DNA of 25,026 nucleotides from a virus. The first letter of the stretch is position 1. Every line of letters starts with the position of its first letter. The translations under genes and the position numbers were made by a program. Location of the stretch: positions 1 to 25,026 of IMG/VR virus record IMGVR_UViG_3300025889_000887; one strand, 5' to 3'. Below the pieces are notes generated by a model. That model saw nothing but the letters and a program-made list of their open reading frames with translations, was not told the origin of the DNA and ran no database searches. Positions 1-24,098 of the stretch are shown one piece after another.

Positions 1-1590
1 CACGTAGTCCTGCTGATTAGCTTGTATAATAGCCTCAAGTTTTCTGTTTTCCAGATCCTCTTTTCTTCTTAGTGCATCGGCTTCTCTTCGAGCCTGAAGA
101 GCAGATAGACCACCCTGACCAAGAGAACCTGCAAGGGTGGAACCGGGGACTGCTCCTGCTGCCATCATACCGAGACCGAGTTCTAGGAGTAGGTCATAGT
201 CAAACCCTCCTGAGCCACTATCGGATGTGTCAGTGTCTGGGTCGGATGTGACTGGGTCTGGGTCGGATGTGACTGGGTCTGGGTCAACTACTGAGTCTTC
301 AGGATCTCCGGCCATAGCTGCGGCCAGAAGGGGTGTCATTCCTGCATCAGGATCGGAACTTGGTCCCCCACTTTGTGCGGCTGCTTTTGCTGCTTCGATA
401 TCTAATCGCCTTTGCAAAGGGGCTGGTATTCCAGATAACGCATCCTGAACCTGAGAAATAACATTTTCAGGATCATCGTAACTTGTTTCAAGCTGTGTGT
501 TAAGCCAATCAAAAAAGGAACTCCCAGTGTCGTTTTCTTCACGCTCGGCATCTCGTGTCAATGCTTCCTGCCGGTACCTCTCCAGTTCATCTTGGTCGTA
601 CAGATTAGCGCCGGTTCCTAACTCTTCGACCTCGGTACCATTCTCATATCTTCGGACAGGAACCTCTCCGCCGCCCTTGAATCCGAAAATGTTGTTTACA
701 AATCCGCCGGGTTCGAATGCGCCACCTGATCCTAGAGCACCTAGACCAGCAAGTGCTGCACCGGCCACCTGTCCACCCACGGATGGGGGCTGACCAAATG
801 TTGTTTGTAGGGATGATCCGGGGACCGAGGCACCGGTAAGAAGACTCTGTAAGCCGGATGCCTGCGCCATTGGGTACTGACGCTGTGTCAGGAAGTCCTG
901 ATATGCAATATCAAGGGCACCCTGACGTTCAGCACGGTTTCGCTCAGCGGCAAGCTCGGCTTCTTTTAGTCCAGATGTCGTAACGGTCTGTAGTCCTGTT
1001 CCTAATGCAGCCATCTGTGGAGCAGCCTGTGATGCCGCAGCACGGTCAAGAGCTAGTTGGGCAAGAGCACTATCGTAGGCCCGCTGTGATCCAGTTGCCT
1101 GAATGTCCGCCAGATTCTGCTGGATGTTTCTCTCGGCTTCTGCCTGTTCAAGAGCTGCACGAGAACCGCCAAAGGCACCTGCTTTTGTTGCCTGAGAGTC
1201 AAGCTGGTTACGCTGGATGTCTCCCTGTCTACGAGCTTCTCTCAGGGCAATGTCGGTGACACCCTGTTGGAACGGGGACATGAATGGGCGTATGTCAGTT
1301 CCAGCGAGCTGGGTTGATCCTAGTTTTGACTGGTTAAATGCCTCGGTAAAAAAGGGGGAAGCAATCCCCGAAGTGTCTATGATGCCCTGACGAGCAGCAA
1401 TCTGATCTGGATCAGAAAGAGCCTGTCGTGGTCCCTGATATGCTTGATAAGGTTCGAAAGCAGCCTCGGTAGCTCTGAGAAGATTAGCCTGATTTAGACG
1501 ATTGTACCATTGGGGGAAATTAGTCTGACTTTCGACTTTCCCCTGCTCTTCAATTTCTCCCGGGCTAAAAAGAGTATCCAGAAATCCCAT
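1..1590 (-). CDS. GGxV-motif virion protein, C-terminus outside window (partial)
   Basis: The reading frame opens with ATG at 1590 and stays open for 530 codons to the window edge, so the C-terminus is missing. The ATG overlaps the stop of the preceding gene as TAATG. The N-terminal half is rich in Ala, Gln and Arg and predicted helical. It contains a QATKAGAFGGSRAALEQAEAE-type stretch (about residues 140-165) of a kind that recurs in marine phage virion proteins. Around residues 293-305 are two Gly motifs, FEPGGFV and FKGGGEV. A low-complexity acidic segment (about residues 435-460) is built of DPDPVTS heptads. Near the end a Gly/Ala-rich stretch (LGLGMMAAGAVPG) precedes a charged helix. No enzyme domain is visible. 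Position after the nozzle-like gene and the GGxV protein suggests a virion or ejected protein; the exact role is unknown. Confidence 0.75.
   Translation of the reverse strand, partial: MGFLDTLFSPGEIEEQGKVESQTNFPQWYNRLNQANLLRATEAAFEPYQAYQGPRQALSDPDQIAARQGIIDTSGIASPFFTEAFNQSKLGSTQLAGTDIRPFMSPFQQGVTDIALREARRQGDIQRNQLDSQATKAGAFGGSRAALEQAEAERNIQQNLADIQATGSQRAYDSALAQLALDRAAASQAAPQMAALGTGLQTVTTSGLKEAELAAERNRAERQGALDIAYQDFLTQRQYPMAQASGLQSLLTGASVPGSSLQTTFGQPPSVGGQVAGAALAGLGALGSGGAFEPGGFVNNIFGFKGGGEVPVRRYENGTEVEELGTGANLYDQDELERYRQEALTRDAEREENDTGSSFFDWLNTQLETSYDDPENVISQVQDALSGIPAPLQRRLDIEAAKAAAQSGGPSSDPDAGMTPLLAAAMAGDPEDSVVDPDPVTSDPDPVTSDPDTDTSDSGSGGFDYDLLLELGLGMMAAGAVPGSTLAGSLGQGGLSALQARREADALRRKEDLENRKLEAIIQANQQDYV
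221..283. repeat. 21-bp tandem repeat coding DPDPVTS heptads
   Basis: The core TCGGATGTG recurs at 221, 242 and 263, giving a 21-bp period over about three copies. On the coding (minus) strand it encodes an acidic, proline-rich heptad repeat, probably a flexible linker inside the partial virion protein. Confidence 0.8.
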
Positions 1591-5944: not shown

Positions 5945-7093
5945 TTAGTCACTCTCTTTTATACCAAACCAACATACAAGAGTATAACGATTACCCGATG
6001 TAATCATGTTTACTCTGTGCATGACAGAGCCGCCTCTAAAAAGAATAAGTTCCCCCGTATGTCCTTTTATCCCTAAGCCAAGATGTGGAAATACAAGCTC
6101 ACCTCCTTCATAATCTTCATTAAGATAAACTATAGCAGCAAAATGCCTGTTAGGAAATTCTCGGTGCTCACCTAGATCATCATGTACTAACATCTCATCC
6201 CCTTTGCCCCACCTTACAGTATGTGGGTTTAATATTGATAGGTCGAGACCAGTTTTTTGCTGGGCGAATTGTAATAGTCTTTCCTCAATAACTCCTTTAT
6301 TTGCCTCAATGGTTGACCAGCACATCTTGTTTCTCCAAAGATCAGAAGTGTCATCAGGGTTTTCAGGAACCCAGTTTCTGATTAAATAAGAACATTCGTC
6401 TGTGTCTAAGAAAGATTCTTTAGAGTGAATATCGTTTTCTTCTAGTATCTTGAAACTATCGTTATAGTCTATAACAGGAGAACACCGGACAAACCTACGT
6501 GCTTTTTTAAAATAATCTTTTGTCCACTCATCTGCTTTGTCACGTTTGTCTGTCAATACTTCTCGTTCTTTGCGGACACTGTCCGGTTCACACATTTTAT
6601 AAATCTTGGTATTTTCGATGGTTCCGGTGTCCACAGGAATAACACGGGCAACGGGGGTACCTTTTGGGATTGTGGTTTTTCCTTTGTTAATGACCCTGAT
6701 TGTCAGAAACCATGGGTACGATAACCAATCAGTCTCGATGACTGCGGACATCGTTTGAATATCTGTGTTGTCTGTGTTAGGAACTGGCATAACCATGAGA
6801 TTAATGTTCTCATCAGTGCGCCAGACATATCCGGGGTCTAGAGTGAATGTCCCTATTCCGAAGTGGCTCTTTGCACCGTGACCTTCTAGGACCGTGAGAT
6901 TGTCTTTGTAGACACCCCCGTCCCATTCGACAGTGATTGATTCATTTAGTACCAAGTCCCATCCAAGGGTATTCGCACAAGTAAGGGGTGTGCATTTATA
7001 AGAGTGAGGGGAAAACCAATCTCTGGTTTTAGTGGCAGGGACTATATCAACTGATTTGACTGAATCAGATATCACCGGGTAAATCTTTATCAT
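5945..7093 (-). CDS. DUF6065-like domain fused to 2OG-Fe(II) oxygenase (prolyl 4-hydroxylase-like)
   Basis: A 382-residue two-part protein. The N-terminal ~180 residues resemble the DUF6065 family: a CTPLTCANTLGWDL segment, VEWDGG, a FGIGTFTL strand and an ETDWLSYPW segment. The C-terminal ~130 residues show the double-stranded beta-helix signature of 2-oxoglutarate/Fe(II) dioxygenases. The HxD iron ligands are H304 and D306 (MLVHDD), the distal iron ligand is H359 (GGSVMHRV) and the 2OG-binding Arg is R369 (GNRYTLVCWF). The stretch AAIVYLNEDYEGGELVFP is typical of prolyl 4-hydroxylase-like members. The start overlaps the methyltransferase stop as ATGA, so the two genes are translationally coupled. 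The substrate is unknown; the polyproline protein three genes upstream is an attractive candidate (inference). Confidence 0.85.
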   Translation of the reverse strand: MIKIYPVISDSVKSVDIVPATKTRDWFSPHSYKCTPLTCANTLGWDLVLNESITVEWDGGVYKDNLTVLEGHGAKSHFGIGTFTLDPGYVWRTDENINLMVMPVPNTDNTDIQTMSAVIETDWLSYPWFLTIRVINKGKTTIPKGTPVARVIPVDTGTIENTKIYKMCEPDSVRKEREVLTDKRDKADEWTKDYFKKARRFVRCSPVIDYNDSFKILEENDIHSKESFLDTDECSYLIRNWVPENPDDTSDLWRNKMCWSTIEANKGVIEERLLQFAQQKTGLDLSILNPHTVRWGKGDEMLVHDDLGEHREFPNRHFAAIVYLNEDYEGGELVFPHLGLGIKGHTGELILFRGGSVMHRVNMITSGNRYTLVCWFGIKESD

Positions 7094-7863
7094 ACTAGTT
7101 TTACAACGTATCTATTACCAAAACCCACAGGGTCTGATATGAGGGGGATATCTAAAAGAATTTCATATTCTGAGGGGTTTAAGGTGGTCTCAGGATTCGT
7201 ACCTTCAACAAGAGACTTTGATGCGATAAGAACTTCTTTTCCCTCGTCTCGTAAAAATCTACCCAGATCCAAATTCTTTTGAGCCCACCCACCATAAAAA
7301 ATACGGGACATGATATAGGTATCGTAAGACATATCAATAGTTTCTATGGAGGCCACCTCTGAAAAAAATCTTACGTCATAATTAAGTAAGACGAAATTAC
7401 AAGCTGCGATCACTTGGGATTCGTCCAGACCTTCGTAGACAGCATTAACACTCCCCAGTTTGTGTGTGATGATAGTTGAGGTCCCAGTCCCACAGCCTAT
7501 GTCGCATACCCTCTTATCTTGCCAGTAATTCGAGTAGTCCAGTGGGGAGGTTGACCCCCGGCCTTTTAACCAACTGTATTTAATAATTTCTCCGTTGGTC
7601 CATTCCTCATTAGGATCAGTAAAAGGAGGGGTCGGCTCCATGTCCTTATCCCAACCAATATAGGAAAAATCTCTGATAATGCTGGGAAGAATAGGTCTTC
7701 CCTGAACACACCTGATTCTATTATAGTTATTATAGAGTGCATCTAAAACAGACTCTCGATTAACGGTCTCTGTTTCAAAGTAAGAAGACACCAGTACTTT
7801 CCAATCAGGGAGAATAGTGTTCTCCATGACTACAGCTAGTTTTTCAGCGTATGATACGGGCAT
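7090..7863 (-). CDS. SAM-dependent methyltransferase
   Basis: A 257-residue protein with a Rossmann-type SAM-binding motif I at residues 119-130 (VCDIGCGTGTST). An acidic motif II region follows (VYEGLDES) and later a hydrophobic strand (VLIASKSL), as expected for class I methyltransferases. The ~115 residues before the fold show no recognised domain and may determine substrate choice. The start codon shares bases with the stop of the sulfotransferase-like gene (TAATG), and the end overlaps the oxygenase gene (ATGA). This places it in a coupled tailoring cassette. The target (protein, peptide, glycan or small molecule) cannot be read from sequence. There is no DNA-methylase motif such as DPPY or PCQ, so a DNA target is less likely. 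Confidence 0.8.
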   Translation of the reverse strand: MPVSYAEKLAVVMENTILPDWKVLVSSYFETETVNRESVLDALYNNYNRIRCVQGRPILPSIIRDFSYIGWDKDMEPTPPFTDPNEEWTNGEIIKYSWLKGRGSTSPLDYSNYWQDKRVCDIGCGTGTSTIITHKLGSVNAVYEGLDESQVIAACNFVLLNYDVRFFSEVASIETIDMSYDTYIMSRIFYGGWAQKNLDLGRFLRDEGKEVLIASKSLVEGTNPETTLNPSEYEILLDIPLISDPVGFGNRYVVKLV

Positions 7864-8504
7864 TACTCAAACACTCCTGTGTAATTAAGAGATTTTAATA
7901 TACTCTTGTCTACGTTGTTCTTTATGATATGCGACATGTCTGGTGTCATATTATACGACATACGTGGGTCCAGAGCCATTCTTTTTCTTTCAGGGGTAAA
8001 TTCAAAAGAACCAGAAACTTTTATAGGTAAGCCGTCTGGATCTATTCTGGTATCAAGATTCTTCAGTGTTGTGACGGGGTCACTGATAAGATCCCGGTAT
8101 TTTACAAATTTAATAACTGAGGAAAAAGGATCTGATAACCAGAAGTGGAAAAATCTGTTGTAGAGATCACAGATGTTTTCCAAACTGTATGTCTTATACT
8201 CTTCGACAATATCGGGTGTATCCCTGAGTGTCCGGCTTGTGGCGCATCTGATCTTGGTGTGTCCTTTTTCGTAATGGACTCTGTAGTGATCACCAAGTTC
8301 CCATGATTGAGAGATGATGCTGTCGATCCATTTGTACGGGGACTTATGAATAATTACCCTGTCCATGGATTTAATCTTGTCTGGGATGTCTGTCCTGACA
8401 AACTCGTGCTTGTACTCGGTATGCGTATTATCAGGATCAAGAATGGTTTGAAGATATGTGGTACCTGATCTATAAAGACCACAGACTAGGGTAGACCTTT
8501 CCAT
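7863..8504 (-). CDS. Sulfotransferase-like protein
   Basis: A 213-residue protein when started at the ATG at 8504. An earlier GTG at 8537 is possible but has a poorer context, while a GGGAT stretch lies a few bases before the ATG. A P-loop-like 5'-phosphosulfate binding motif is at residues 9-19 (GLYRSGTTYLQ). A second conserved element, HKSPYKWIDS (53-62), corresponds to the 3'-phosphate-binding region of PAPS-dependent sulfotransferases, and KYRDLISDP (135-143) matches another conserved strand. The family transfers sulfate from PAPS to hydroxyl or amine groups of sugars, tyrosine or small molecules. It is short for the family but both nucleotide-binding elements are present. It overlaps the Hint gene by 19 bases and is TAATG-coupled to the methyltransferase. 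Confidence 0.75.
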   Translation of the reverse strand: MERSTLVCGLYRSGTTYLQTILDPDNTHTEYKHEFVRTDIPDKIKSMDRVIIHKSPYKWIDSIISQSWELGDHYRVHYEKGHTKIRCATSRTLRDTPDIVEEYKTYSLENICDLYNRFFHFWLSDPFSSVIKFVKYRDLISDPVTTLKNLDTRIDPDGLPIKVSGSFEFTPERKRMALDPRMSYNMTPDMSHIIKNNVDKSILKSLNYTGVFE

Positions 8505-9160
8505 TGAATATCCCGAATGTCCTCTGTTCTGCACCACTGTGAAATCCCTACAAATCCATCTACTATATATCCACCACCAGATTTTAGTAACAGGCCATGG
8601 ATAATTTCTTCGGGGTCTTGTTCAGAATCCCATGTTGCCTCGGTCTTTTCCCAGCCATCGATGGTGGCGAATTCGTACTGTTTCCCGTATAAGAGAGGCA
8701 TCGTTGCTTTACCAATGTGTTCGTAGTCATAGGGGCTTTCACCGGGGAAGTTTTCCTCGGAAGATTCGGCATAGCCACGGTCTTCCAATAGCCACCAGTT
8801 ATAATTATAGACACCCCAGCGTTCAACCCCGTTGTCGTCTCTGATCCACATGTCATGGTCATCACTGAAGCGTAAGGGTTTACTCTGTCTTTTACGATGT
8901 AGGCTCATCATCCGTCGTCCTTTGGATACAGGGACAGGTTTGTTCTCCAGAACCTCAACAGGTTTGCCAGACATCGAGATTACGTAATCTCCGACTTCGA
9001 CTTCGTTGATCTGTTTCCATGAAAGATCACCCATCAATATTAGAGTATCGCTGGCAAAACAGGTCATTGCTGGTGGCGGGGGTGGAGGTGGAGGAGGTGG
9101 CGGGGGTGGTGGTGGTGGCGGTGGAGTTAGTAGTCCGCCTACTAGAATAATATCAGGCAT
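8486..9160 (-). CDS. Polyproline-Hint domain protein
   Basis: A 224-residue protein. Residues 1-12 are short and hydrophobic, residues 13-30 are 18 consecutive prolines, and residue 34 is a Cys that begins a Hint (Hedgehog/intein) domain. Visible Hint blocks are block A (C34-FASDTLILMGDLSWKQI, then VEVGDYVIS), a block B-like SDDHDMW (99-105, His102) and a terminal block resembling YIVDGFVGIS (198-207). Where an intein would end in His-Asn followed by Cys/Ser/Thr, the residues here are Gly-Ile-Ser. Full splicing therefore looks unlikely, while the N-terminal acyl shift or cleavage at Cys34 remains possible. The gene lies 3 bases after a collar-type fibre and overlaps the sulfotransferase-like gene. 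What the domain releases or attaches is unknown; a tail-associated role is inferred from position. Confidence 0.8.
   Translation of the reverse strand: MPDIILVGGLLTPPPPPPPPPPPPPPPPPPAMTCFASDTLILMGDLSWKQINEVEVGDYVISMSGKPVEVLENKPVPVSKGRRMMSLHRKRQSKPLRFSDDHDMWIRDDNGVERWGVYNYNWWLLEDRGYAESSEENFPGESPYDYEHIGKATMPLLYGKQYEFATIDGWEKTEATWDSEQDPEEIIHGLLLKSGGGYIVDGFVGISQWCRTEDIRDIQWKGLP
9071..9124. repeat. 18-codon polyproline tract
   Basis: Read on the minus strand these 54 bases are 18 consecutive Pro codons using CCA, CCG, CCC and CCT in mixture. The mixed codons mean the protein run is maintained without a simple single-trinucleotide expansion. Runs this long strongly stall ribosomes and need EF-P, so the tract may also slow translation of the Hint protein. 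Confidence 0.95.
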
Positions 9161-20024: not shown

Positions 20025-20029
20025 GGTGG

Positions 20030-20221
20030 TTAAAATTCTTCCTCATCATATTCGGTGAGTCTTCTCTCAATATCAGAACACTTTGAAATGGCCAACTCTA
20101 AACCGTGGATCATTCCTACCATGCGCTGATACTCTGCATAAGTTTCGCAAACACCTTTGGACAGACTCGACTGGACACCATCAATTTCCTGCCGAATCTC
20201 GGATTTTAGGTCTTCAAACAG
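20030..20221 (-). CDS. Small helical protein lacking an ATG start
   Basis: The frame after the TAA of the upstream 65-residue gene stays open for 65 codons to a stop at 20030, 5 bases before the GroES-like gene. The product is helical (KLFEDLKSEIRQEIDGVQSS, then CETYAEYQRMVGMIHGLELA and a Glu-rich end). It resembles a short protein type found near portal and terminase genes of marine phages ('YxxYxxLVGxIxGLExA'). No ATG, GTG or TTG lies in the N-terminal part; the only plausible initiator there is CTG at 20221. Read-through of the TAA or an ATG further in are alternatives. The protein pattern supports a real gene; the start is uncertain. Confidence 0.55.
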   Translation of the reverse strand: MFEDLKSEIRQEIDGVQSSLSKGVCETYAEYQRMVGMIHGLELAISKCSDIERRLTEYDEEEF

Positions 20222-20227
20222 TTTCGA

Positions 20228-20425
20228 TTACTTTCTTCGGCTGGCCTTTGCCGTGTACGAGGAAAGATTTGCCATGGTTGGCGTCACGTTTGTGTTGTAA
20301 TCACTGGAAGGATCACCACGTAAAACGGCAACATGTGATCGCACCGTCCATTCTGAAGAGGGGAGTTTAGACCAATCCTGACTCGGGGCCAGTTTACCGG
20401 GACCCTTGCTCATTTTGCCTTTCAT
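20228..20425 (-). CDS. Small hypothetical protein
   Basis: A 65-residue basic protein starting 5 bases after a 48-residue gene and ending in TAA, with an open frame continuing after the stop. Visible are WSKLPSSEWTVRSHVAVLRG, a Thr/Asn-rich middle and a Ser/Lys/Arg-rich end. No domain is recognised. Its location in a tightly packed set of genes, with matching spacing on both sides, supports it as real. Confidence 0.6.
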   Translation of the reverse strand: MKGKMSKGPGKLAPSQDWSKLPSSEWTVRSHVAVLRGDPSSDYNTNVTPTMANLSSYTAKASRRK

Positions 20426-20430
20426 AATAC

Positions 20431-20577
20431 CTATTTTCCTTTTGTCGTTTTCCGCTCGACTTGGTAAAGACGACGGATCATTTTCTTGGCGTTATCAACA
20501 GAAGAAGCCTTGGCATGTTTCTTCCATTTACCGCCTACTTTCTTTTGTACCACATTTCCAACATTACGCCAAGGCAT
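20431..20577 (-). CDS. Very small basic protein (48 residues)
   Basis: The ATG at 20577 lies 6 bases after the portal stop and the frame ends with TAG at 20431, 5 bases before the next ATG. The product begins MPWRNVGNVVQKKVGGKW and continues KKHAKASSVDNAKKMIRRLY, with a Lys-rich end. A short PW-x-x-VG...W-K-K...A-x-x-x-L-x-x pattern of this kind is seen in small genes near terminase and portal genes of environmental phages. The function is unknown; nucleic acid binding is possible from the charge. Confidence 0.65.
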   Translation of the reverse strand: MPWRNVGNVVQKKVGGKWKKHAKASSVDNAKKMIRRLYQVERKTTKGK

Positions 20578-20582
20578 CTATG

Positions 20583-23500
20583 TTACTCCACCAGTAAGGT
20601 ACCTAGATCTTTTGGGGGAACCTCATAATCTTTTTCCCATCTTTGCATAATATCACCGTTTGCGTTGTAGATATCGTAAAATGTTCCTGTTCGTTCCCCG
20701 TCTTCACCAAGTCTTTCTGAGATTTCAATTTTGACTGCTCGGTCTTCTAAAGGTGCAACCATATTGTATGCTAAGAGTCTTCTTTTTAACATGCCCGGTA
20801 GAAATTTTCCACCTGCCCTAAAATTTCGTGTGAACTGGAGGAGGTTATCCCTATTATAATCCTCAGTACCAATATTATCTGACTCATCTAGAAACAGGCT
20901 AACATCGTCCCAGCCCGAAGCCTCTCGGAAATTATAGATAGTATCAATCACTGCTGCTTGAGCTTCTTCATTATAAGCTTTTAAGGGTTTTCCATTATAT
21001 TCTTGATCTTTAACTTCATTATAAAATTGTAAGGCAACGGCTTCCGCAAAGGCTTTCTTATCATTATTGTAGTCTGCCAAATACAGAGCATCCGGATCAT
21101 CAATATCACCTTTTCTGGCACCGGAGATATCAGTTTTCTCCTCATCAATGTTGCCCTTGGCATCCAAGACAATAGTAACACTATCGATTTCAGGAACAAC
21201 ACCGTAAGCTAGAGTGAATTCGTTGGCTATTTTATCCCAATGATCGTAATCGCCCTCACGGCCTCCAAGACCTTCCATAAATGTAGTTATTGGGTGCGTA
21301 TATAAATGTTGTGGACGGCCCCCTAGAATCTGGGATGTCGTGGGTTCTTCTACTTCTTCTGACGTAGTACTCTGAGGTGCCGTGGGCTTTACTTCTGGTA
21401 GACTCTGCATAGCCTCGAACATGCTTGCATCGGTGGGAGACAGGGGCTTTACTTCTGGCAGACTCTGCATAGCCTTGAACATGCTTGCGTCGGTGGGAGA
21501 CAGGGGCTCTACTTCTGGTACTTTTAACCCTGATACATTAATATCCGGGGTTTCAGAGAACTGTGATTTCTTAGTGTTCTGAATATCTTCGTACATACTC
21601 ATGTTGTTTCGATATGCTGCTGCTTCCGCCATGGCACGGGCTTCGTCGGGGTAAATATCAGAGCCGGTACCTAGCTGTTCAGGATCGTAGCTATTGATCA
21701 AGGCAATGACATCGTCAAAGGTTACCGTGCCTCCGGGTTTATACCCTTTGATTTCTGCGGCTCCGCCGTCGGCAAATCCTTTGGTCTCTTGTGATAAGTT
21801 AATGTCTCGCATCTTGCCAAGTCCTTCCAAAAGGAATTTCTGGAGCATGATGTCCTTTTTGTTCTCGGCTTCCTTGTTTCGGATTGTGTTGACACCGATG
21901 TCTTTTGCTGCGTCGATGTCCTGACCACGGCGGCGGATGTCGAGTTCCTGTTTCTTCAGGGAGAGGTCGGCCATCTCTCTGGCGTTGTCCTGATCTAAGC
22001 TCTTTTCCTTTAGCTCAAGACTTCTGGACTCTAGGGCTAGTTGCTGCTGTTCCAGACTCTGGTACTGACCGAGCTGCTGGTTAGCATTCAGGATCTGTTG
22101 AGCGGCCTCGGCCATGATCTCGGGCATGACATCTGGGTTTTGTGCGACACCGGCTTCATTCATCAGACCACTCATGGTCTCCTGATACTGCATCATCATA
22201 TGATCCCTGATGGCGGCTTGTAGGATCGGACCGATGCTTTGAAGAATCTTGTTCTGGCCAAGGGTGGGGTCTTGCAAGAATGATGTGAAGACTCGGATGT
22301 ATGCCTGATGATCCTGACCGGGGAAGGCAGAGATCGGGAGACCCTTTGATGCCGCCAGAATATCAGAGACAGGATCTTGTTCCTGAGGTTCCTTTTCGGC
22401 GGATAGGAAACGTGATGGTTCCCGTACACCGGCGGCTGTGAGCAAGGACCTGTGTACTTCTCGCATGTCATAGGTGCCGGGGGTTGACTGTGCTGAAATC
22501 TGGAGAAGTAGCTGGGCCTGTGCCAGACGATGAGCCTGTGAGGGAATGTTAGGGTCAGAGACCGGGATGATATCGACACGTCCGTCGAAGTCAGAACGGG
22601 TGACAGGGAGTTCACGGCCCGGAATAGGGATCATCATCTGCTCATCTGGGAGGAACTCGTAGTTTAGCCGGGCCAAAATCCGGAGTTCATCTTTCTGACT
22701 CTTGTGTAGGCGCTTGTGAATGGCCGAGAAGAGCTTTGCTGAAGCCTCGATAAGAGCCAAGGTCGTACCCACGGGTCCGTAGTTCGATGCATCAGATACC
22801 ACAGCGTCCGTGGAGTCTGCGAATTTTTGACCGGCTTGCGTGATAAAGCCCAGAAGCTGGAACAGGGTCTGGGAAGGCTCCTTGTAAGGGAGTGGGACAA
22901 TGGCCTTGTTCAGGTCCATACCTGTTGCTTCGACTTCCTTGAACTCGCCGGGGGCGATGGGATCATCACCGCCGACAATCCTGATGCCACGGGCCTTGAA
23001 GCCGCCGGGTAGATTGGCAAACTGGCCAGCATCTAGGAGGGAACGCATTGCCAGAGTGGCAGACATGGTCATGTTACCGAGGAAGTGAATCAGGCCGAGA
23101 CCGTAGAAGCCGAAGCCGGGGACGTACTTGTAGTGAGTGAAGTACATCTTCTTCTCACGGGTTGGATCGTTTTCGTTCCAGTTGCGTCGGATGCCGAGGA
23201 CCTGACCAGAGTCGTTTTCAACGGTGACAATATAAGGTGATGGGAATTCGTCATCGTCGAGTTCGAGGTACAGGTGCTGTTCTAGCAGGGTGTACTGCTT
23301 GTCGTGCTCGGCGTTGAATTCGATGCCCATGATTGAGTTGATTGTCTGGCTCATGGTCGATGGCTGGAAGTTTCCGGGCTCTGAGAGATCGATGTCACGA
23401 TACATCCCGGACATGATCTGCTTCTGGAGTTCGTGGGGGGTCATGTAAATGACGTGGGTGTATCGGTCAGCCCGGCGTAGGTCCGTGGCGTTGTACGAGA

Positions 23501-24098
23501 CATAGAACTGGTCAACGGGGACGAACTCGGAGACAGGGCGTTCCGAGGCGGGGTCATAGTAGATTTTCTTGAATGCCGAGCCTACAAGTGGGAGATGGAA
23601 GAGCATACGCTCGAATTCGTCAAAGTATTCTGGCATTACTTCGGTGAGCTGGAAGTTCATGAATGACTGGACACGTTCGGACTGGTCTTCTTTTTCAGCA
23701 TTGGATTTGCCGATGATCTGGGCTTTAACAGGACCCTGTGGTGGGAAGAGTTCCTCGGAAGCCTTTGATTGGAACTTTACGGCGCTCTCGATCAGTAGGG
23801 GATGTACGGCTGTGCAGGCACCCTCGAAAGGCTCAGAGGTTGTGTTTAACTTGAGACCAAGGAGTTCGAAGCCTTTCTCGAACATGCTTTCCCATTCAGC
23901 CCGGGATTCTTTGTCTGACGTGTAAGAGTCCATGACAATGCTTCCGATTCTTTCGATCTCGGATTCATCAAGGTATTCTTCAGCGAGATTGTCCGAGAAA
24001 AAAATCTCGGGGGCTGGCTCAAAAGGAATAGCGTCTAGATCCATTTCGTCTGGGAGAATAAAATCTAGGATGTTAATGTTGTCGTTAGGGAGTGCCAT
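20583..24098 (-). CDS. Portal protein with C-terminal GH24 lysozyme-like domain
   Basis: A 1171-residue protein, far longer than the usual portal (P22 gp1 is 725). Residues ~30-660 are portal-like: AVKFQSKASEELFPPQGPV, then DEFERMLFHLPLVGSAFKK, VPVDQFYVSYNATDLRRADR and a helical stem region with DSTDAVVSDASNYGPVGTT. Residues ~665-765 are a Gln/Glu-rich helical barrel segment. FADGGAA (~773), then a linker with two 20-residue repeats (~860-905) lead to a region (~930-1115) like glycoside hydrolase 24. It has Glu942 in FMEGLGG, Thr962 in FTLAYGVV, a VIDTIYNF helix and the RAGGKFLPGMLKRR signature (1094-1107). About 55 residues follow. Catalytic competence is not certain, because the Glu-to-Thr spacing is 5 longer than in T4 lysozyme. 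Confidence 0.85.
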   Translation of the reverse strand: MALPNDNINILDFILPDEMDLDAIPFEPAPEIFFSDNLAEEYLDESEIERIGSIVMDSYTSDKESRAEWESMFEKGFELLGLKLNTTSEPFEGACTAVHPLLIESAVKFQSKASEELFPPQGPVKAQIIGKSNAEKEDQSERVQSFMNFQLTEVMPEYFDEFERMLFHLPLVGSAFKKIYYDPASERPVSEFVPVDQFYVSYNATDLRRADRYTHVIYMTPHELQKQIMSGMYRDIDLSEPGNFQPSTMSQTINSIMGIEFNAEHDKQYTLLEQHLYLELDDDEFPSPYIVTVENDSGQVLGIRRNWNENDPTREKKMYFTHYKYVPGFGFYGLGLIHFLGNMTMSATLAMRSLLDAGQFANLPGGFKARGIRIVGGDDPIAPGEFKEVEATGMDLNKAIVPLPYKEPSQTLFQLLGFITQAGQKFADSTDAVVSDASNYGPVGTTLALIEASAKLFSAIHKRLHKSQKDELRILARLNYEFLPDEQMMIPIPGRELPVTRSDFDGRVDIIPVSDPNIPSQAHRLAQAQLLLQISAQSTPGTYDMREVHRSLLTAAGVREPSRFLSAEKEPQEQDPVSDILAASKGLPISAFPGQDHQAYIRVFTSFLQDPTLGQNKILQSIGPILQAAIRDHMMMQYQETMSGLMNEAGVAQNPDVMPEIMAEAAQQILNANQQLGQYQSLEQQQLALESRSLELKEKSLDQDNAREMADLSLKKQELDIRRRGQDIDAAKDIGVNTIRNKEAENKKDIMLQKFLLEGLGKMRDINLSQETKGFADGGAAEIKGYKPGGTVTFDDVIALINSYDPEQLGTGSDIYPDEARAMAEAAAYRNNMSMYEDIQNTKKSQFSETPDINVSGLKVPEVEPLSPTDASMFKAMQSLPEVKPLSPTDASMFEAMQSLPEVKPTAPQSTTSEEVEEPTTSQILGGRPQHLYTHPITTFMEGLGGREGDYDHWDKIANEFTLAYGVVPEIDSVTIVLDAKGNIDEEKTDISGARKGDIDDPDALYLADYNNDKKAFAEAVALQFYNEVKDQEYNGKPLKAYNEEAQAAVIDTIYNFREASGWDDVSLFLDESDNIGTEDYNRDNLLQFTRNFRAGGKFLPGMLKRRLLAYNMVAPLEDRAVKIEISERLGEDGERTGTFYDIYNANGDIMQRWEKDYEVPPKDLGTLLVE
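21384..21520. repeat. 60-bp tandem repeat in portal linker
   Basis: Two near-identical 60-bp units (21384-21443 and 21444-21503) and the first ~17 bases of a third encode a 20-residue repeat (PEVKPLSPTDASMFEAMQSL). It is a Pro/Ser-rich linker between the portal barrel and the lysozyme-like region. Confidence 0.95.

Follow-up and report, generated by a model that had tools for sequence, protein, structure and literature searches.

A phage portal protein with a GH24-like domain, one of several putative cell-wall enzymes exchanged at its C-terminus

Introduction

Enzymes that cut the cell wall are carried in phage virions on tails, tape measure proteins and ejection proteins. In the IMG/VR virus record IMGVR_UViG_3300025889_000887, a fragment of 25,026 bases (the window, which here means this whole stretch of DNA), one long gene encodes a portal protein followed by a lysozyme-like domain. 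Comparison with related portals suggests that, in an uncultured marine-type phage group, the inner end of the portal is formed by an enzyme that cuts the cell wall.

The portal-lysozyme gene

The initial annotation had described a portal with a GH24 lysozyme-like domain, and both parts were found in one polypeptide, supported by a single open frame, a Pfam portal match and a profile link to GH24. The 1171-residue open reading frame (ORF) is real and lies on the minus strand, which that annotation had not given. Identical full-length copies were present in three other contigs (L001-L003), among them L003, a 53,271-base contig (pieces L092-L094). The parts of the gene are as follows.

20583..24098, minus strand: portal-lysozyme gene, 1171 codons in a single open frame, ATG start at 24098, stop codon at 20583-20585
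21894..24098, minus strand: portal core, residues 1-735 (PF23899, phrog_1216, Foldseek match to SU10, VIA-align)
21792..22055, minus strand: predicted long C-terminal portal helix, residues 682-769 (secondary structure of a low-confidence model)
21309..21791, minus strand: linker of about 160 residues (770-930), predicted to be unstructured (predicted local distance difference test, pLDDT, below 50 across residues 759-1030)
21384..21520, minus strand: 60-bp tandem repeat within the linker, 2.3 copies
20586..21308, minus strand: divergent GH24-like lysozyme domain, residues 931-1171 (241 residues; profile comparison and model)
21213..21257, minus strand: putative catalytic triad Glu948 (in GGREG), Asp955 and Thr962 (conservation and hhalign against the GH24 triad)

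Residues 1 to about 735 were assigned to a portal of the SU10/P22 type from a family profile above its cut-off and a predicted portal fold. PF23899 (SU10_portal) was matched with 46 bits against a cut-off of 30 over residues 185-577, and phrog_1216 (portal) with 1.1e-40. With the full-length model, which was of low confidence (pLDDT 46) and was used only to assess the fold of the portal part, its long helix and the linker disorder, Foldseek gave the SU10 portal as the best match (4.9e-14), and the portals of N4, DEV, PaP3, P22 and Pam1 were also matched. VIA-align superposed residues 42-729 on SU10 residues 5-639, residues 49-735 on P22 residues 5-640 and residues 39-756 on N4 residues 19-692. 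The Pfam matches of the whole protein comprised just SU10_portal and a weak, sub-cut-off coagulase match, which was set aside; a MuF domain was not among them.

The C-terminal domain was GH24-like, with a putative muralytic activity. No match to PF00959 was obtained for the window type even at E<=10, nor for its nearest relatives, and a homologue of the domain in L024 reached 0.0019 (18.9 bits, cut-off 22.3); with no match above the cut-off, the domain was named GH24-like and not filed as GH24. Profile-profile comparison linked the domain with K1E gp35 (P 1.6e-7 to 5.2e-7) and, when the L024 homologue was added, end to end with canonical GH24 domains (P 9.8e-6), while the control, an SLT alignment against the window-domain profile, gave P 0.076 and the comparison with pesticin tails P 0.27. 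The link became clear only once the L024 homologue and the GH24 tails of other portals had joined the profiles; against three stand-alone GH24 proteins alone P was 0.049. A model of the domain, built from eight sequences, was ranked by VIA-align closest to R21, the GH24 endolysin of phage 21 (Z 6.2), then to pesticin (5.9), and T4-type lysozymes made up most of the list, with all Z values at or below 6.2 and so under the comfort level of the tool itself. Rows named mARC1 and dynein in that list are presumably T4-lysozyme fusion constructs. Foldseek found nothing significant with the domain model. A scan with a wider alignment for further window-type domains revealed no new type.

The putative triad Glu948, Asp955 and Thr962 was conserved in all six members that cover the region (the window included), and hhalign placed it on the canonical GH24 triad with a Glu-to-Thr spacing of 14 against 15. 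In the GH24-like pattern proposed earlier the catalytic Glu had been misplaced, since the Glu of FMEG (Glu942) was not conserved.

Different enzymes at one portal site

Related loci were fetched by their likeness to the window, among the matches listed, and are therefore a likeness-biased sample and not a census. They gave 159 distinct 3'-complete portal frames after removal of frames with identical last 400 residues and of frames falling short of core residue 650. Thirty of the 159 were extended, with a tail of at least 289 residues after the core match, and the other 129 were short (at most 161 residues); near-copies remained among the 30, such as L004, L007 and L026. The extended tails carried the window-type GH24-like domain (7), canonical GH24 (8), a pesticin-type domain (7) or an SLT domain (4), and four (L167, L189, L239, L242) had no profile assignment.

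Among close relatives, SLT matches were obtained in the tails of L008 (9.1e-25), L019 (2.2e-25) and L023 (9.9e-23), and pesticin matches in those of L013 (1.8e-21), L021 (8.5e-28), L014 (9.6e-38) and L017 (5.8e-38). The tail of L262, also of SLT type, matched PF01464 at 8.2e-11. Canonical GH24 was carried by more distant portals (54-58% identity in the best tblastn segment, among the matches listed), namely L115, L116, L121, L130, L137, L156, L161 and L233, which matched PF00959 at 9.4e-22 to 3.2e-35. Judged from these profiles, one portal site is occupied by three unrelated or very distant muralytic families: GH24 in two branches, SLT transglycosylase and pesticin-type muramidase.

The limits of the exchanged part could be read from the comparison with L008.

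20586..21683, minus strand: exchangeable cassette, residues 806-1171; likeness to L008 (SLT) ends at about residue 805 and returns at the stop codon

DNA identity between the window and L008 was 96.0% over the 3.3 kb that end at about portal residue 805 and 94.5% over the 4.1 kb from the portal stop codon onwards; between these breakpoints about 1 kb was unrelated, except for one 78-base piece of the linker. The pesticin-type loci L015 and L013 had the same left breakpoint as L008, and their likeness to the window returned just after the stop. Different enzymes were found on near-identical cores (L008/L004 98.7%, L011/L016 97.9%, L021/L012 96.8%; core identities are taken over the first 2,100 bases), and the same enzyme on diverged cores (L004/L012, domain 96.2% against core 75.9%; L008/L019, 92.2% and 78.1%; L013/L016, 92.2% and 78.0%). 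On a core tree of 73 rows, in which every third short portal was kept and L242 was set as SLT by eye (PF01464 just 0.051), 2 changes accounted for the extended state, and within the extended set the enzyme type changed at least 10 times. The ratio of nonsynonymous to synonymous substitution (dN/dS) of the domain was about 0.22-0.51 in diverged pairs.

The window domain is thus one of several exchangeable, putative cell-wall enzymes at the portal C-terminus, which is wider than the single lysozyme fusion first proposed. Cutting of glycan strands, as predicted from the families, is what stays constant through the exchanges.

Possible role of the portal-borne enzyme

It is fairly probable, in our judgement, that the portal bears its own virion-associated peptidoglycan hydrolase for entry. 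The wall-enzyme domain sits on a structural protein, in one open frame and recurrently, and the fact that relatives swapped the enzyme for unrelated wall-cutters at the same spot suggests that the portal is used to carry a wall-breaching tool. In P22, as PMC4992974 describes it, the C-terminal portal barrel faces the head interior and the ejection proteins collect at its mouth. If the C-terminal end here pointed into the capsid as that barrel does, about twelve enzymes would lie on the genome side of the portal. When a cell is infected, the enzymes would travel out through portal and tail, whether released by a cut at or close to a junction motif or with the linker still holding them, and would open the way for the genome by cutting the glycan strands of the cell wall. 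This role would be that of the transglycosylase part of T7 gp16, which is on a separate ejection protein and, according to PMC8954989, exits through the portal and is needed for genome entry where the peptidoglycan is highly cross-linked. Two features bear on the proposed route.

21723..21776, minus strand: junction motif in two copies, FADGGAA (residues 775-781) and YKPGGTV (residues 786-792)
1..1590, minus strand: DNA ejection protein (phrog_4287, 5.9e-14), cut by the window end, neighbour of the portal gene

The gene for the DNA ejection protein is evidence for an ejection machine. The GG-containing junction motif may be a cleavage or docking site. Of the 30 extended portals, 29 had it no more than 150 residues past the core (at 53-87 residues), as did 0 of the 129 short ones, while shuffled controls gave a mean of 4.4 of 30 and a maximum of 11 in 500 runs; since the motif was defined after inspection of the sequences and the portals are related, the 29 of 30 is not an independent test. 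Five motif-like stretches were found in a neighbouring frame, 631 residues long in the 53-kb contig (window 1590-3575, minus strand), and others in further proteins. This frame is a candidate virion protein, and some of its stretches resemble modules of tape measure proteins. Pesticin-type domains were also seen in long proteins (about 2000 residues where complete) of L195, L196, L199, L200 and L208-L215; the L195 protein resembles a tape measure protein and has GG-type motifs close to its pesticin-type domain.

An extended version of the entry role is possible, though we put it forward only tentatively. The portal would be a delivery chassis with a modular warhead: the motif (aromatic or Met/Leu, GG, small/hydrophobic), which candidate ejection proteins share, would mark the site at which about twelve enzymes are set free by a protease or by the ejection machine, and the cassettes would be swapped to suit the host wall in the manner of polymorphic toxins.

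Alternative explanations

Several results weigh against a portal-borne entry enzyme. Direct searches of the tail against Pfam, PHROGs and PDB sequences gave no significant match, so Pfam misses the domain. The domain model was modest (pLDDT 68), and its residues 1-42, which include the catalytic stretch, were below 50. In close pairs the dN/dS of the domain was 0.17-1.56 and mostly above 0.55, therefore indicating weak recent constraint or fast change. Finally, Pfam, which may miss unknown endolysins, recognised no other peptidoglycan hydrolase among 48 further ORFs from the window and from the 53-kb contig, a scan that left out some small or split ORFs of the latter; the earlier statement that the window holds no other lysozyme agreed with this and extends to the longer contig. 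Given that these genomes yielded no other recognised lysin, the domain could act in lysis rather than in entry. The tail would then be the phage endolysin parked on the portal gene, freed late by proteolysis or an internal start to lyse the host. Several observations fit this role. In the near-complete contigs G001 and G014, PF16754, PF01464 and PF00959 were found only within the portal gene. Of 32 records, 5 contained PF16754, always in the portal frame, and 6 contained PF01464; in five of these six it was in the portal frame, and in the remaining one, Caulobacter phage RW, it was in a frame of 722 codons. PF00959 occurred in 3 of 27 records, in stand-alone genes of records that have no extended portal; the short-portal relatives G022 and G024 and the isolate QDWS535 have a stand-alone GH24 gene instead. 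The pesticin tails shared 34-43% identity with stand-alone proteins from phages of Vibrio, Pelagibacter and Pseudoalteromonas, and several of these proteins bear the annotation lysozyme or pesticin-domain protein. In L024 (3822-4547) and L023 (4051-4380) the window-type domain is a separate ORF with a GTG start, right after an SLT-type portal and in the same frame (the portal stop is TAG in L024), a layout for which readthrough or a second, free lysin is possible. Four of the eight canonical-GH24 portals (L130, L137, L156, L161) have an ATG in frame, accompanied by a Shine-Dalgarno-like site, shortly before the enzyme; from this start a free lysozyme could be made within the portal gene. The window itself, however, has no start with such a site near the enzyme, its two internal candidates preceding the linker, and the in-frame fusion was retained through at least 10 exchanges, which argues against an endolysin because a free gene would suffice for lysis. 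On balance, a parked endolysin is the main rival of the entry role, but the less likely of the two.

The values of dN/dS near 1 in many close pairs, and the missing direct Pfam match of the window domain, would also suit an ornament or spacer inside the capsid, of lysozyme descent and no longer enzymatic. Repeated replacement by unrelated enzymes that retain their family profiles, conservation of the triad in the six members covering it and purifying selection over long distances speak against it, and we regard it as very improbable. That an assembly chimera or a lost stop codon joined two genes can be practically dismissed. Nothing was found in its favour, although L023 and L024 show that a stop can part enzyme from portal. 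It is already contradicted by independent diverged copies: the window-type domain was fused to the portal in 10 of the 12 contigs holding it, on portals diverging down to 68% identity, with 30 extended portals overall, and the other two contigs begin inside the domain at the contig edge. The frameshift or assembly error named as a danger in the initial annotation is therefore not what made the join.

Comparison with known systems

The portal-borne enzyme shares features with several known systems. Like the SLT-type tails, T7 gp16 (PMC8954989) has an SLT-type domain that cuts glycan strands, borne on a protein that a short-tailed phage carries in its head, and three SLT-type portal tails matched phrog_342 ('internal virion protein with endolysin domain') with values of 1e-15 to 1e-19. 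The T7 enzyme, however, is on a separate ejected protein, whereas the present one forms the C-terminal part of the portal. K1E gp35 of the SP6-like phages, a lysozyme-domain protein (PF00959 2.3e-10), was the nearest profile relative found for the window domain, and its gene adjoins one annotated 'putative internal virion protein', but it has no portal fusion. The portals of SU10, N4 and P22 share the portal fold (residues about 40-735), whereas the alignments stop by about residue 735-756, and nothing in those entries corresponds to the roughly 415 residues that follow. The MuF polymorphic toxins, as presented by Jamet et al. 2017 (PMC5576092), likewise occur on a protein of the head vertex that is either short or bears an exchangeable C-terminal enzyme. 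Their carrier is MuF, encoded beside the portal gene, and their enzymes are nucleases, metallopeptidases, ADP-ribosyltransferases and others; in the present group the carrier is the portal, and all assigned domains are of families that cut peptidoglycan.

Among isolates, HTVC023P/HTVC027P, CRP-901/902, Caulobacter phage RW and others have a homologous core (29-41% identity, query residues 11-657) and the gene order TerL, portal, GroES, but the six portals read were 722-828 residues long and had no extension. The whole window protein matched 18 isolate records by tblastn, with matches confined to residues 11-657, and its tail gave no significant match; the canonical-GH24 portal L116 matched 1,042 records, but in no record did a single place cover 80% of L116. 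By the whole-protein and L116 queries, therefore, no isolate in the collection showed this architecture. In Roseobacter phage CRP-901, gp72 (L086 6754-9327), a LysM-domain protein (PF01476 1.5e-9), lies close after the short portal and may be a separate wall-binding virion protein. A scan of genome contigs gave just four contigs from metagenome-assembled genomes, too few for any host statement. In the open-access literature, judged mostly from titles and listings, no description of a portal-lysozyme fusion was recognised. PMC7689252, considered as a precedent for its similar wording, was rejected, since the portal and transglycosylase that it describes are separate ORFs.

Gene neighbourhood

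The gene neighbourhood is the head and tail module of a short-tailed phage; Pfam families in the window and the 53-kb contig included GroES (PF00166), a capsid protein and SU10-type adaptors. Further features were noted in the window.

20025-20582: about 560 bases with no clear gene, between GroES and the portal stop, within the stretch 94.5% identical to L008
12052-12815: 186-bp unit repeated in tandem about four times, in an ORF that is probably of fibre type
8486-9160, minus strand: ORF that has about 18 consecutive prolines close to its start, then an apparent Hint (intein-type) domain; PF05203 was present in one scanned ORF and was assigned to this one by eye
7863-8537, minus strand, in the tail module: likely sulfotransferase (PF13469 in one ORF, assigned by eye)
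5945-7093, minus strand, in the tail module: protein with DUF6065 and a 2OG-Fe(II) oxygenase

Biological meaning

If the portal does bear its own entry hydrolase, part of the docking ring of the packaging motor would double as an entry tool. The exchange series offers natural controls in the form of nearly identical phages whose main difference at this gene is the enzyme. This makes it testable how a domain held by the portal leaves the head and whether the type of enzyme follows the cell wall of the host.

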